Source of the DNA: an uncultured Prevotella sp.
GTDB lineage: Bacteria; Bacteroidota; Bacteroidia; Bacteroidales; Bacteroidaceae
NCBI GenBank assembly: GCA_905234265.1
Contig: CAJOHJ010000004.1
Coordinates: 297,893 to 361,892, forward strand
DNA length: 64,000 nt
Direction: 5' to 3'
Shown here: positions 5,406-49,061 of the stretch, one piece after another
Numbering within the stretch: the first letter of the stretch is position 1
How the letters are laid out: each line of letters starts with the position of its first letter
Translations under genes and position numbers: made by a program
Notes under the pieces: generated by a model
Databases searched by the model: none
What the model saw: only the letters and a program-made list of their open reading frames with translations
Told to the model about the DNA's origin: nothing

Positions 5406-5476
5406 CGGCAACGGTAAACCGTAAACAGCATATCAGCAAATCGTAAACAGTAAACCAGTAAATAGTAAATAACAAG

Positions 5477-8131: not shown

Positions 8132-8190
8132 GTAACACGCAGAGACAATTTCGTAACACGCAGAGACAATTTCGTAACACGCAGAGACAA
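8132..8190 (+). repeat. 21-bp tandem repeat array, GTAACACGCAGAGACAATTTC x ~2.8 (family array A)
   Basis: Exact copies start at 8132, 8153 and 8174; lies between murD stop and ftsW ATG. Confidence 0.95.
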
Positions 8191-15804: not shown

Positions 15805-15903
15805 GTCTCTGCAAGTTACGAAATTATCTCTGCGAGTTACGAAATTATCTCAATGAGTTACGAAATTATCTTACGGAGATAATTTTTTATCTCACAGGGT
15901 TAC
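15805..15903 (-). repeat. 21-bp repeat family array B (reverse orientation), GTTACGAAATTATCTCTGCGA x ~3 plus palindromic head
   Basis: GTTACGAAATTATCT recurs at ~21-bp spacing; 23-nt inverted repeat AAATTATCT-TACGG-AGATAATTT at 15863-15885. Confidence 0.92.
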
Positions 15904-19647: not shown

Positions 19648-22600
19648 CTACAAATTGACAGAATATTGATTTATCAGCTGGCAGAAAAGGCGATTCTGGC
19701 GCAGAATTTGTGTGTTGCCTGTCATCAGCAGCTGGCGGCGTGCGCGTGTCATGGCTACGTTTAGCTTGCGGTCGATGGTGTGGCCGTCTTCCTCGAAGCA
19801 GTTGGCTGTCAGAAAGTCGAGCTGATAGCTGTGGCTGATGGTAAACGAATAGATGATGACGTCGCGCTGCGACCCTTGGTAGCGTTCTACGGTGTCGATG
19901 CTGATAGCCTGCAGGCGGTCGATGCCAAGCCGCTCTATTTCCTGCCGGATCATGGTTATCTGGTTGCGATAAGGCACGATGACACCCACAGTCTTGTCGG
20001 CATCGAAGCGTTCGGCACCAATCTGTCGGTAGATGCGCCGCAGCAGGTCGGCAACGATGCGCGCCTCGGCCTGCGACACTTTGTCGGAAAGCGGCAGCGG
20101 CGTCTCAGCAGATTCTTTTCCCTGCCTGACAATCTTTTTTTCTTCCTCGGCAGGCAGGAACATCACGCGGCGCTCCTTGAGCAGCTGGTCCAGATGGTCT
20201 TCGGCAGGCAGGGGATAGCCGATGGCGGTCTCCTGCTGGTGGGGCAGGGGAACGGCGGACAGAGGCTGGCGGCTGTAGAAATGGGCGTTGGGAAAAGCGG
20301 CAATTTCCGGATGCATGCGCCCCTGATGCTGCAGCATGGCCGTGAAATCGGTGCGCAGGGCTGCCTGTTCCTGAGCGAGAAGGCGTTCGAAGAGCGAACG
20401 GCGGCAGTCGTGCAGCCCGGGGATGTCGTCGGGTTGCTGTATGACGGCCGGCAGTTGCTTGTGGTCGCCGATAAGTATGAAGCGGCCAATGCTGTCGCTC
20501 GACAACAGTCCGACGATGCTTGGCTCCAGAATTTGCGATGCCTCGTCGGCGATGCACAGTGAGAAGCTCCGCAGCTGCAGCAGCTGTGGCAGCGACTGCA
20601 GTGTGGCTGTCGTGGCGGTAATCACTGGAGTGCGCAGAATTTTCTCTTTCAGTTCTGCCATGATAGGATGGACGACGGCCTGGTGTTCCAGCAAGCGGTC
20701 GGCAAATCGTGGGTCGCACGTCGTCTCGCTGCCGATGCGCAGATAGTCGATGTCGGCCGTGGAAAGCATTTCGCAGATTTCGTCGATGGCACGGTTGGTA
20801 TAGGCCGTCAGCAGCACGGCGCCACTATTTTTTCCTTCAAGCCCTCCGCTTTGTCTGTCTACTCCACCGTTTTCCCCAGCCAATTCTTCCTCGACAAGGA
20901 ACCTGAGGGCCATGGATGTCTTGCCCGTTCCCGGCGGTCCTTGCAGCAGGAAGTAGTCGCTGGCTCTCATGGCTTTCAGCACTATGTCATCGTAGTTGGG
21001 ATGGTAGCTGCGCGTCAGCAGTCGGCTGTTGTCGCGTCTCGGTGAGCGTCGGCCCATGAGCAGTGCGCGACGGTCGTCGCTGGCAGCGGCAAAGGCTTGC
21101 AGGCTGCGCAGGGCTGCGTTGGTGATGGTGTCGGAGGCGGCATGCTCTATGGCGTATGGGCGGCAGTGTCGCAGCAAGACGCTCAGCGGCAGTGGGTTGA
21201 GCAGCCTGACGCTGACGGTGGTGTTCGTCAGCGAGGCAATGACGCCTTTGTAGAGAATGCTTGAGCAGACATTTGGCTCTTGCCCGTCGGTGTAGGCATA
21301 CAGGAAGATGCCGTCGCCACGCCTGAAGTTCAGCGTCTGCAGGTCGGCCTCCGGCATGTTGAGCATTATGTCTGCCACCGTGCCGATGCCGTAGTCCATG
21401 GTGCCGCCGAAGCCTTTGTCGGTGGCGTTGCTGTCTTTAATAGTGGCGTTGCTGTCTTTAATAGTGGCGTTGCTGCCTTTAATGGTAGCGTTTATTAGCT
21501 CCGCAGGCTTAATGCCCAGTCCGGTTATGATGTCGCCGGCCGCCTGCTTGTCGGCGGTGGGCATGTTCCACAGGTGTGCGGCAGCGTGGCTGTTGCCCTC
21601 CTCGATGCCTACCTTTTGCACCAGCATTTCCCTGAACACGAAGGTCGTCATGCGCTCAACGTATTGCCTGTCCTGTGGCGGCAACTGCTGCAGTGGCCTG
21701 ATGGAGTCGTCGATGCGCTGGCGTATGTAGCGGTTGAAGAAGGTGGCCTTGTCCTGGTTCTCCAATAGCGCGTCGGCAGTGATAGTCGGCAGCATGCGTG
21801 GGAAGCTGCCGCCGGCGATGCTCATTTCCATGGCCACGATGCTGTTGCGCACGCTCACAGCCTGCCGGAAGAGTTGCTGGTAGTAGCTTACCACCATAAG
21901 CCCTTGGCTTGCGGGATATTTGGAATACAGCAAGCGGATGTCCAGGCGGTCGGGCGACAGGTTGAAGTTGTGGCGCAGCACTCCGTAGTACAGCAATAGC
22001 TGCACATAGTGGCTTTCCTGATATTGCAATGGCGTGTTTCCCGGTCCTGCCATTGCCGAATACGGTCCTGCCATTGCCTGTGACGGCAGCAGGCGGCCTT
22101 TTCCCGACTTTTGCTCAACGAGCAGGCGCATGTCGTCGGTCATCAGGTCCACGCGACCTTGCAGCCCGAGGCGCTCGCATACGAAGGAAGGTTCAAGAAT
22201 GGCACGCTCGCGGTCGTAGGTGCTGAACAGCACGTCGACAGCCTGCAGGATGTTGGCAGTCTGTGCGGCAGCGTCGGTCTTGAACTGCTGAGCGTTGAAC
22301 TCCGGGCATGTGCAGAATGCCAGCGGCTGTCGCTGGAAAGTCTGGCAGAGGCTTTTGGCGGCAGTGTTTCTGCCGCTGCCGTGGATGGCGTTGTCGAGGG
22401 CTGTTCCGGCAAAGTTTCCCAAGAGAATCTGCTGGCTGTTGGCGCGCGGCTTTAGCTTGTCGATGAGGCTGGCAAGTGCATTGTGTCCCCACTCTTGGAA
22501 GCAGGCGGCAACGGCTGATATGTCTACCAGATAGTCAGGCTCAACGACGACGGTGCCTGCCGTGATGGTGTCGCCGTCTCTGTGACTGTCCAGGATGTTC

Positions 22601-28133: not shown

Positions 28134-28209
28134 CACTTACGGAATTATCTCTGCATGTTACAAAATTATCTCTGCATGTTACGGATTTTTCTCCGTAAGA
28201 AAATTCCGT
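28134..28209 (-). repeat. 21-bp repeat family array C (reverse orientation) with imperfect hairpin head
   Basis: TTACGGAATTATCTCTGCATG / TTACAAAATTATCTCTGCATG / TTACGGATTTTTCTCCGTAAG; hairpin CGGATTTTTCT-CCGTA-AGAAAATTCCG. Confidence 0.9.
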
Positions 28210-34811: not shown

Positions 34812-34874
34812 TGTCTGCTATATATATAATAATGTCTGCTATATATGTAATATTGTCTGCTATATATATAATAA
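34812..34874 (+). repeat. 3 x 21-bp tandem repeat TGTCTGCTATATATATAATAA
   Basis: Units at 34812, 34833, 34854; units 1 and 3 identical, unit 2 differs slightly. Confidence 0.97.
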
Positions 34875-36010: not shown

Positions 36011-36049
36011 AATATTTTTGTTGTTTTGTTATTTGTTTTTCATGTCTTG

Positions 36050-37177
36050 CTATTGGTTGTTGCTGTCCTCAGAAGCAAACTCCATGAGGTATGCTTTTAT
36101 GAACTCGTCGATTTTTCCGTCCATCACTCCGTCGACATCGCTTGTCTGGTAGTTGGTGCGATGGTCCTTTACGCGGCGGTCGTCGAACACGTAGCTGCGG
36201 ATCTGGCTTCCCCACTCGATTTTCTTCTTGCCGGCTTCAATTTTCGCCTGTGCCTCCAGGCGCTTCTGCATGGCGCGGTCGTAGAGTTGCGAGCGCAGCA
36301 GCGCCATGGCACGCTCCTTGTTCTTGGGCTGGTCGCGCGTCTCGGTGTTCTCTATCAGGATTTCCTCCTCTTCGCCAGTGTCGGGGTCGGTATACCAATA
36401 GCGCAGGCGCACTCCAGACTCCACCTTGTTGACATTCTGTCCGCCGGCGCCGCTTGAGCGGAAGGTGTCCCACGACAGCTTGGCGGGGTCGACATACACT
36501 TCGATGGTGTCGTCGACCAGCGGAGTCACGAACACCGATGCAAAGCTGGTCATGCGCTTGCCTTGAGCGTTGTATGGCGACACGCGCACCAGGCGATGCA
36601 CGCCGTTCTCCGATTTCAGATATCCGTAGGCGAACTCGCCGCCTTCTATCTGCATTGTCACGCTCTTGATGCCTGCTTCGTCGCCGTCCTGCAAGTTTGC
36701 AATACTCACCTTATAGCCGTGAGCCTCTGCCCATCGCATGTACATGCGCATAAGCATTTCTGCCCAGTCCTGTGCTTCCGTGCCGCCGGCGCCGCTGTTG
36801 ATTTTCAGCACTGCGTCCATGGGGTCTTCCTCCTGACGTAGCATGTTCTTCAGTTCCAGAGCCTCGATGGCAGTGATGGCACTGCGGTAGTCGTCGTCCA
36901 CTTCCTGCTCGCTGACCATTTCTTCCTTGAAAAAATCAAAGGCCAACTGCAGCTCGTCGGCGGCAGTGCGCACTTCCTGGTAGCCGTCAATCCATTTCTT
37001 GATGCCGCGCACCTTCTTCATCTGCTCCTCGGCGCGCTTCTGGTCCTGCCAGAAGTCGGGAGCCTGCGTACGAAGCTCTTCCTCTTCGTACTCCATTTTC
37101 TTTTCGTCTATCTTGAGGTACTTGTAGAGTGCGTCGGCACGGTCAAGTACGTCCTTCAACTGGTCTTGTGTTATCAT
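36050..37177 (-). CDS. prfB: Peptide chain release factor 2
   Basis: GAGGTEAQDW, RSSGAGGQNVNKVESGVRL (GGQ). Confidence 0.96.
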   Translation of the reverse strand: MITQDQLKDVLDRADALYKYLKIDEKKMEYEEEELRTQAPDFWQDQKRAEEQMKKVRGIKKWIDGYQEVRTAADELQLAFDFFKEEMVSEQEVDDDYRSAITAIEALELKNMLRQEEDPMDAVLKINSGAGGTEAQDWAEMLMRMYMRWAEAHGYKVSIANLQDGDEAGIKSVTMQIEGGEFAYGYLKSENGVHRLVRVSPYNAQGKRMTSFASVFVTPLVDDTIEVYVDPAKLSWDTFRSSGAGGQNVNKVESGVRLRYWYTDPDTGEEEEILIENTETRDQPKNKERAMALLRSQLYDRAMQKRLEAQAKIEAGKKKIEWGSQIRSYVFDDRRVKDHRTNYQTSDVDGVMDGKIDEFIKAYLMEFASEDSNNQ

Positions 37178-39094: not shown

Positions 39095-39230
39095 CGCAGA
39101 GATAATCGTCAGGAAAAATTTCGTAACATGCAGAGATAATTTCGTAAGTCATTGAGATAATTTCGTAACATGCAGAGATAAATTTTTTTCTTACGGAGAT
39201 AATTTCGTAACTCGCAGAGATAATTTTATC
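39095..39230 (+). repeat. 21-bp repeat family array D, GAGATAATTTCGTAACATGCA x ~5
   Basis: Repeated (GAGATAA)TTTCGTAAC(ATGCA) units including CTTACGGAGATAATTTCGTAAC. Confidence 0.92.
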
Positions 39231-48315: not shown

Positions 48316-49061
48316 AGACAGCCCTGCTCACCACAACATATTTCGGCCCCGTCCAGTGGTATCAGAAGCTGGTGCGCTACGACCGCTGCATCATCGAGCA
48401 GCACGACACCTTCCAGAAACAGACCTACCGCAACCGCTGCGTGATAGCCACCGCCAACGGCCTGCAGGCGCTCACCGTGCCTGTGGAACACCAACTGCCG
48501 GCAGCCGACGACGGCACCCGGAGAGCTGCCTGCGTCAAGGACGTGCGCATCAGCGACCACGCGCAGTGGCGCCGCGTACACTGGAACGCACTCTCGTCGG
48601 CCTACAGTGAGAGTCCGTTCTTCGATTACTATGCCGACGACCTCCACGACTTCTTCTCCCGGCGCTACGACTACCTGATAGACCTGAACGAGGCCATCCG
48701 CCAGACCGTATGCTCGCTGATAGACCTCCATCCGGCAGTCTCGCTGTCGTCAGAGTTCACGGCCGTCGCCCCCGGCAGCCGGTCCGCCGACGTAACTCAG
48801 CAAGAAAAAAAAATATCTCACAGAGATAATTCCGTAACATGCAGAGAAAAAAAATTATCTTACGGAGATAATTTCGTAACATGCAGAGATACTGTTGCAG
48901 ACTTCCGGCAGACCATCAGTGCCAAGCATCCCGGCGACGACCCGGAGTTCGAGGCGCGCCCCTACTGGCAAGTCTTCGGCCGCCGCTACGGTTTCCAGCC
49001 CAATCTCTCTATTCTCGACCTCCTGTTCTGCATGGGTCCGGAAGCCATCTTCTATCTCTAA
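48312..49061 (+). CDS. WbqC family protein with in-frame repeat insertion
   Basis: TTYFGPVQWYQKLVRYD, TYRNRCVIATANGLQALTVPV, PYWQVFGRRYGFQPNLSILDLLFCMGPEA. Confidence 0.92.
   Translation: MKTALLTTTYFGPVQWYQKLVRYDRCIIEQHDTFQKQTYRNRCVIATANGLQALTVPVEHQLPAADDGTRRAACVKDVRISDHAQWRRVHWNALSSAYSESPFFDYYADDLHDFFSRRYDYLIDLNEAIRQTVCSLIDLHPAVSLSSEFTAVAPGSRSADVTQQEKKISHRDNSVTCREKKLSYGDNFVTCRDTVADFRQTISAKHPGDDPEFEARPYWQVFGRRYGFQPNLSILDLLFCMGPEAIFYL
48791..48890 (+). repeat. 21-bp repeat family array E inserted in frame within the wbqC-like CDS
   Basis: GAGATAATTCCGTAACATGCAGAG and TTACGGAGATAATTTCGTAACATGCAGAG; palindrome AAATTATCT-TACGG-AGATAATTT at 48852-48874. Confidence 0.93.

Follow-up and report, generated by a model that had tools for sequence, protein, structure and literature searches.

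Evenly spaced tandem dyad arrays in the genome of an uncultured Prevotella, one of them translated within a wbqC-like gene

Repeats translated in frame within bacterial genes are already known. Rickettsia palindromic elements (RPEs; PMC10969869) are dispersed and lie in frame in unrelated genes, where they are translated; they measure about 150 bp and are reported mainly in ORFs. The BrickBuilt minisatellite-MITE of Porphyromonas gingivalis, another member of the Bacteroidales, is a species-restricted, dispersed element whose 23-bp tandem unit is about two helical turns long; its 19 copies carry a leader and a tail with inverted ends and are always intergenic (PMC4596501). The uptake sequences of Neisseria and Haemophilus (DUS/USS; PMC1939737, PMC7811141) are species-specific, over-represented and evenly spaced short single motifs, found about every 1 kb; they also occur in genes, with a preferred orientation and frame (PMC2346458). 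Direct repeats of the TAACTGA heptamer in Bacteroidetes form intergenic tandems, some of them translated in ORFs, with 7-bp units near start codons, and are not reported to be evenly spaced (PMC4679880).

The repeat considered here was found in a 64,000-nucleotide stretch of an uncultured Prevotella (the window), as an array within a wbqC-like gene. Its family satisfies none of these descriptions entirely. Like the RPEs, it is inserted in frame in unrelated genes, encoding WbqC, a GH2 enzyme and a PG_1098-like protein; unlike them, it consists of evenly spaced arrays of 21-bp dyads, of which 62/67 are intergenic and only 3/67 truly gene-internal. The copy number, the leader and tail and the strictly intergenic location of BrickBuilt are all absent: 35 arrays inspected by eye have no leader or tail with terminal inverted repeats in common, and three arrays are in genes. 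Over-representation and even spacing are shared with uptake sequences, but multi-unit arrays every 13 kb replace a short motif at about 1/kb, and an uptake role would be hypothetical. From the heptamer repeats, as far as these are described, the arrays differ in unit length, position and spacing. A species-private family that is rarely found within genes, locked to two helical turns and placed about 13 kb apart with a hard minimum, is undescribed in the open-access literature as far as this can be searched. The surprise lies in the even spacing and the two-turn geometry rather than in the insertion in wbqC. The initial annotation, which described that insertion, missed the main phenomenon, a chromosome-wide, evenly spaced family with three of 67 arrays inside genes.

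The wbqC array and the loop that carries it

The array consists of dyads of 17 bp each, with starts 21 bp apart (Table 1); TRF detects 42-bp and 21-bp periods at 48803-48891. The initial annotation had placed it at 48791-48890, within 2 bp of the limits given by the dyad scan, and had correctly named the peptide it contributes, VTQQEKKISHRDNSVTCREKKLSYGDNFVTCRD. Chance is excluded as an origin because the core AGATAATTNCGTAAC, with at most one mismatch, has 488 matches in the 2.69-Mb genome and its reversed control has 0. An RNA-family origin was rejected, as Rfam recognizes no known RNA at the array, its one sub-threshold match being elsewhere in the window.

Table 1. Positions of the wbqC-like gene, its array and other arrays and array-bearing genes (window coordinates, or contig C4 where prefixed)
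Feature	Position	Strand	Basis and remarks
wbqC-like gene, 249 aa	48312-49061	+	ORF; Pfam WbqC; intact, array held in frame
Array of five dyads at 21-bp spacing, 101 bp, translated frame DNSVTCREKKLSYGDNFVTCRD	48792-48892	+	Dyad scan, TRF, unit register
Dyad 1, GTAACTCAGCAAGAAAA	48792-48808	+	Dyad scan
Dyad 2, ATATCTCACAGAGATAA	48813-48829	+	Dyad scan
Dyad 3, GTAACATGCAGAGAAAA	48834-48850	+	Dyad scan
Dyad 4, TTATCTTACGGAGATAA, perfect 6-5-6 inverted repeat	48855-48871	+	Dyad scan
Dyad 5, GTAACATGCAGAGATAC	48876-48892	+	Dyad scan
Family array, 5' of FtsW/RodA-like gene	8132-8190	+	TRF, core matches; gene call: at ORF start
Family array, convergent intergenic	15806-15871	-	TRF, core matches, gene calls
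Family array, tandem intergenic	28137-28193	-	TRF, core matches, gene calls
Family array, divergent intergenic	39117-39226	+	TRF, core matches, gene calls
PG_1098/THUMP-like protein gene with in-frame array	C4:70279-71682		Own gene calls
GH2 enzyme gene with in-frame array	C4:88034-90799		Own gene calls

The gene, flanked by a signal-peptidase-like pair on one side and a SusC-like gene on the other, scores positively as coding with a simple dicodon gene finder trained on the same genome, and, as the initial annotation held, no stop codon interrupts its reading frame across the array. The product belongs to the WbqC family, scoring 119.5 bits against a cut-off of 21.3 for the Pfam profile (PF08889). 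Removal of the repeat hardly changes the score (121.5 bits), since the C-terminal part of the protein scores poorly anyway. The protein retains 69/70 near-invariant columns (at least 95% identical across 69 homologues), and the death of the gene, which had been named as a result that would count against the insertion, finds no support. Judged from its sequence, wbqC is a living gene, intact despite the array. The predicted structure of the protein alone has a pLDDT of 37, and a search for a solved structure of a WbqC-like protein found none. The array also places A9 and A8 runs in the coding sequence (48803-48856), where slippage could toggle the gene off and on.

The loop between a conserved helix and the D-F/Y-R block measures 57 aa here, against a median of 22 aa (16-53 aa between the 5% and 95% limits) in 57 homologues, so that about 35 aa are extra, corresponding to the length of the array, and the array is an in-frame insertion. 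That the repeat, a member of a dispersed family, entered the gene with its frame kept thus agrees with the earlier proposal. The accompanying expectation, that the flanks are nearly contiguous in other WbqC proteins and that alignment leaves a gap at the insertion, stands only in part. Homologues commonly have some 16-53 aa between the flanks. Among the nearest of them (69-76% identity across the N-terminal 155 aa), most have shorter loops of 16-23 aa; the exception is the close homologue L022, whose loop is expanded to 53 aa by 19.7 copies of GTTCAGG, translated as VQGSGFM repeats. Equally long unrelated sequence in homologues, proposed as evidence against an insertion, does exist in some: L209 (54 aa) and L034 (51 aa) have non-repetitive loops, and L022 and L241 have other repeats. 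Heptanucleotide repeats fill the loops of L022, L241, L035, L033 and L238, with 7-aa repeats in some of the products. In total, other tandem repeats, mostly of 7 nt, occupy the loop in 13/57 homologues, against 3/228 equal-sized control windows taken upstream within the same genes (P 8e-8). The loop is thus a genus-wide hypervariable site, prone to repeats, and the dispersed repeat sits in frame in a loop that tolerates almost anything. Length variation and proneness to repeats across the genus might also suggest that the array is nothing but low-complexity wbqC coding sequence, whose likeness to other repeats is incidental. Such an account is highly improbable: the same units lie elsewhere by the hundred, mostly outside genes, and the dispersed family refutes it as a full explanation.

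A species-restricted family and its spacing along the chromosome

Exact copies of the core 15-mer AGATAATTTCGTAAC number 255 in this genome, against 0-7 in each of 398 other genomes of the genus, among which diverged relatives of the family occur only in G192 and G096. A pattern search of contigs gave no match for the tighter pattern, and the looser one matched only RUG107 (the same genome as G192) and one other MAG. The family, established as such and as species-restricted, is nearly private to this species. A viral origin was rejected, the paired units being absent from viral contigs. The units are modular: AGATAA is followed by TTTCG, AAAAA or TTTTT, then by TAAC or TATC, and then by a six-base linker such as ATGCAG, TCGCAG, TCATTG or TTACGG. 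Most of the information resides in two conserved blocks, at positions 1-6 and about 12-17, which can be read as a pair of half-sites separated by roughly one helical turn. A strict rule that arrays contain a whole number of dyads was rejected; 24/64 arrays end with an additional half-site, and the rule is only approximate.

The analysis of spacing and gene context covered 851 kb (32% of the genome), made up of contigs C4 and C1 together with the initial 140 kb of C2. The assembly, in 30 contigs, has a completeness of 93.8%; genes were called with a simple model of our own, and the limits given for arrays are approximate. Genes occupy 87% of this region, yet 62/67 arrays (~93%) lie outside gene bodies. 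At this density the whole genome would hold about 200 arrays. The array 5' of the FtsW/RodA-like gene is located in a cell-wall cluster, with a mur-type gene on its other side; the longest ORF there opens upstream of the array with GTG, and the downstream ATG is the likely start.

The other truly gene-internal arrays, by the same gene calls, are those of the PG_1098-like and GH2 genes. The GH2 enzyme is the cleanest sister case, with a protein-level empty site in its homologues: it has about 50 aa at the array site, against 0-8 aa in homologues of ~76% identity. Homologues of both proteins are without the 21-bp family at the site. All three genes read the units in one forward frame, RDNFVTC/SYGDN; on inspection of the sequence, no other forward frame of the common AGATAATTTCGTAAC unit stays open. 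The insertion of arrays, in frame, in three variable loops is established. The neighbours of these three arrays are unusually distant (P 0.009; n=3, post hoc).

Arrays are over-dispersed along the chromosome. The 35 arrays of C4 (452 kb) are 12.9 +/- 4.9 kb apart, with a minimum of 6.6 kb, and the coefficient of variation (CV) of spacing is 0.38 in C4, 0.42 in C1 and 0.46 in C2, against ~1.1 for random intergenic placement (P 0/20000, 5e-5 and 1e-3, respectively). A few single-match 'arrays' such as C2:31423 are probably due to chance; under a stricter definition, chains of at least two dyads, the 851 kb contain 65 arrays. These leave 62 gaps, 13.1 kb long on average (sd 5.6 kb), and not one is shorter than 5 kb, against 19.6 expected. 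The distance between arrays has a hard minimum at about 5-6 kb.

Even spacing is what is reported for Haemophilus and Neisseria uptake sequences, and it counts among the expected outcomes of uptake-biased drive (PMC1939737, PMC7811141). Arrays might likewise bias DNA uptake or recombination in natural transformation, accumulate neutrally and come to be spaced at about the length of transferred fragments, with in-gene copies persisting only at tolerant sites. The species-specificity of the family and a ComEC homologue in the genome favour this, but the presence of ComEC says little, since it is also matched in 10/14 control genomes. Arrays occur once per ~13 kb, against once per ~1 kb for the short uptake motifs, and tandem arrays are not expected under such a drive because two close uptake sites give no gain in uptake in Haemophilus (PMC7811141). 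We consider it unlikely.

The hard minimum would also suit a target-immune mobile element of MITE or BrickBuilt type, inserting anywhere except near an existing copy; the 23-bp minisatellite within the Porphyromonas MITE (PMC4596501) provides a precedent. The lack of common ends among the 35 arrays and the variable number and type of units argue against it, and so do the arrays that other species have in the same loop with unrelated sequences. No Y1 (REP/RAYT-type) transposase was matched (PF01797) in the 93.8%-complete genome, for which reason REPIN mobility driven by a RAYT was rejected. An immune element is somewhat less likely still than uptake drive.

Two-turn geometry in relatives

Arrays of the own genome have periods of 21 bp (80), 22 bp (4) and 20 bp (2), with none at 19 or 23 bp. 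In a 1.48-Mb sample of relatives, once 7-nt-based arrays are removed, arrays with 2.4 or more tandem copies and a period between 19 and 23 bp fall at 21 bp (16) or 22 bp (27), with none at 19, 20 or 23 bp. Dyads matching at 6/6 positions account for 16% of the 21/22-bp units in these relatives; among shuffled units the share is 1.8%, and among units of other periods 3.6%. Further 21/22-bp arrays of unrelated sequence in the window (21422-21492, 34812-34874, 5416-5469 and 36015-36067) fit this genus-wide preference.

In the PG_1098-like gene (L178-L192), 8/15 relatives have a 22-bp array in the same loop, made of unrelated dyads such as GGAAACTGACAGTTTCC, TCCGCACGGAGCGGA, TTCCCTGCCTGGGAA and GAGAAACGGCCTTTCTC. 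As 22 is not a multiple of 3, the encoded peptide does not repeat between units, and the repetition is therefore kept or generated at the nucleic-acid level. G055 has an unrelated family, AATACARTAACTATTG, in 22-bp units (74 matches, against 0-1 in three other genomes). On a 439-kb contig its arrays are evenly spaced, on average 38.7 kb apart (CV 0.33, P 7e-4; CV 0.43, P 0.003 with a second unit type added). Contig C12 of that genome (L059-L063, L248-L264) displays elaborate 22-bp modular arrays, CTAAAGTGGCACTATTGGAGTG / CAATACAATAACTATTGATGTC / ...AGCTATCTCAGCGCTGAGATAGCT..., about every 39 kb. In G192 the palindrome AAATTCTCTAGAGAATTT (194 matches genome-wide) accompanies 21-bp arrays in inverted orientation (L158-L177); spacing on the two contigs tested is suggestive of evenness without being significant (CV 0.68 and 0.62, P 0.10 and 0.19).

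Two other dispersed elements were encountered. G083:C13 (L088-L090) carries a promoter-adjacent element of ~150 bp, in five copies per 60 kb, with GTTTCAAAATTAGCAAAA direct repeats; the dispersed TTTCAAAATTAGC element of G083 was rejected as a family member, being a longer promoter-adjacent repeat. G037:C31 (L095-L096) has many copies of CCCCTAAACAGGGG in a common AGACCCCTC context, in both orientations.

A period locked to 21/22 bp, enriched dyads and a sequence that is arbitrary for each locus in many relatives could all be products of mutation: synthesis involving hairpins or slippage, with two helical turns as its ruler, would make dyad arrays at tolerant places, and one type would be spread, functionless, by gene conversion. 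The gathering of 7-nt repeats in the wbqC loop points the same way. Such an origin predicts neither the even ~13-kb spacing of one family nor the repeated appearance of 22-bp arrays in the loop of one gene, and is about as improbable as the target-immune element.

We lean towards a DNA-level element bound cooperatively by a protein, the translated segment in wbqC being a passenger, and would give this a little less than an even chance. The wbqC array would be one copy of a species-amplified element of tandem ~17-bp dyads every 21 bp. Such repetition brings a half-site round to the same face of the DNA at about every helical turn, a geometry that would fit a dimeric protein binding cooperatively on that face. 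The elements may act in cis as sites for a putative protein that organizes or marks the chromosome, their ~13-kb spacing being held by selection or biased conversion. Spacing of this order is also that of bacterial supercoil domains. Copies that land in genes would survive only in length-tolerant loops, in the forward frame open for both common unit types, and would be translated as a hydrophilic, presumably neutral passenger of a protein that still works.

The even spacing and the geometry are established; the main difficulty for the binding-site explanation is that unit sequence varies among species and, outside the own genome, G055 and G192, among loci; a single sequence-specific protein would not account for this. 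A broader reading, possible and somewhat more doubtful than the binding-site explanation, is that the genus harbours a class of chromosomal elements set by geometry rather than sequence: arrays of tandem dyads every two helical turns, placed at even distances on the chromosome, whose unit sequence is replaced between species and which persist at a fixed in-gene site despite this turnover, in spirit like eukaryotic satellite DNA. If true, this would imply a binding protein that evolves fast or reads structure. The in-gene copies show how much added sequence the loop of a conserved protein tolerates, and the spacing of the arrays makes chromosome-scale organization or transfer-driven evolution in Prevotella directly testable.
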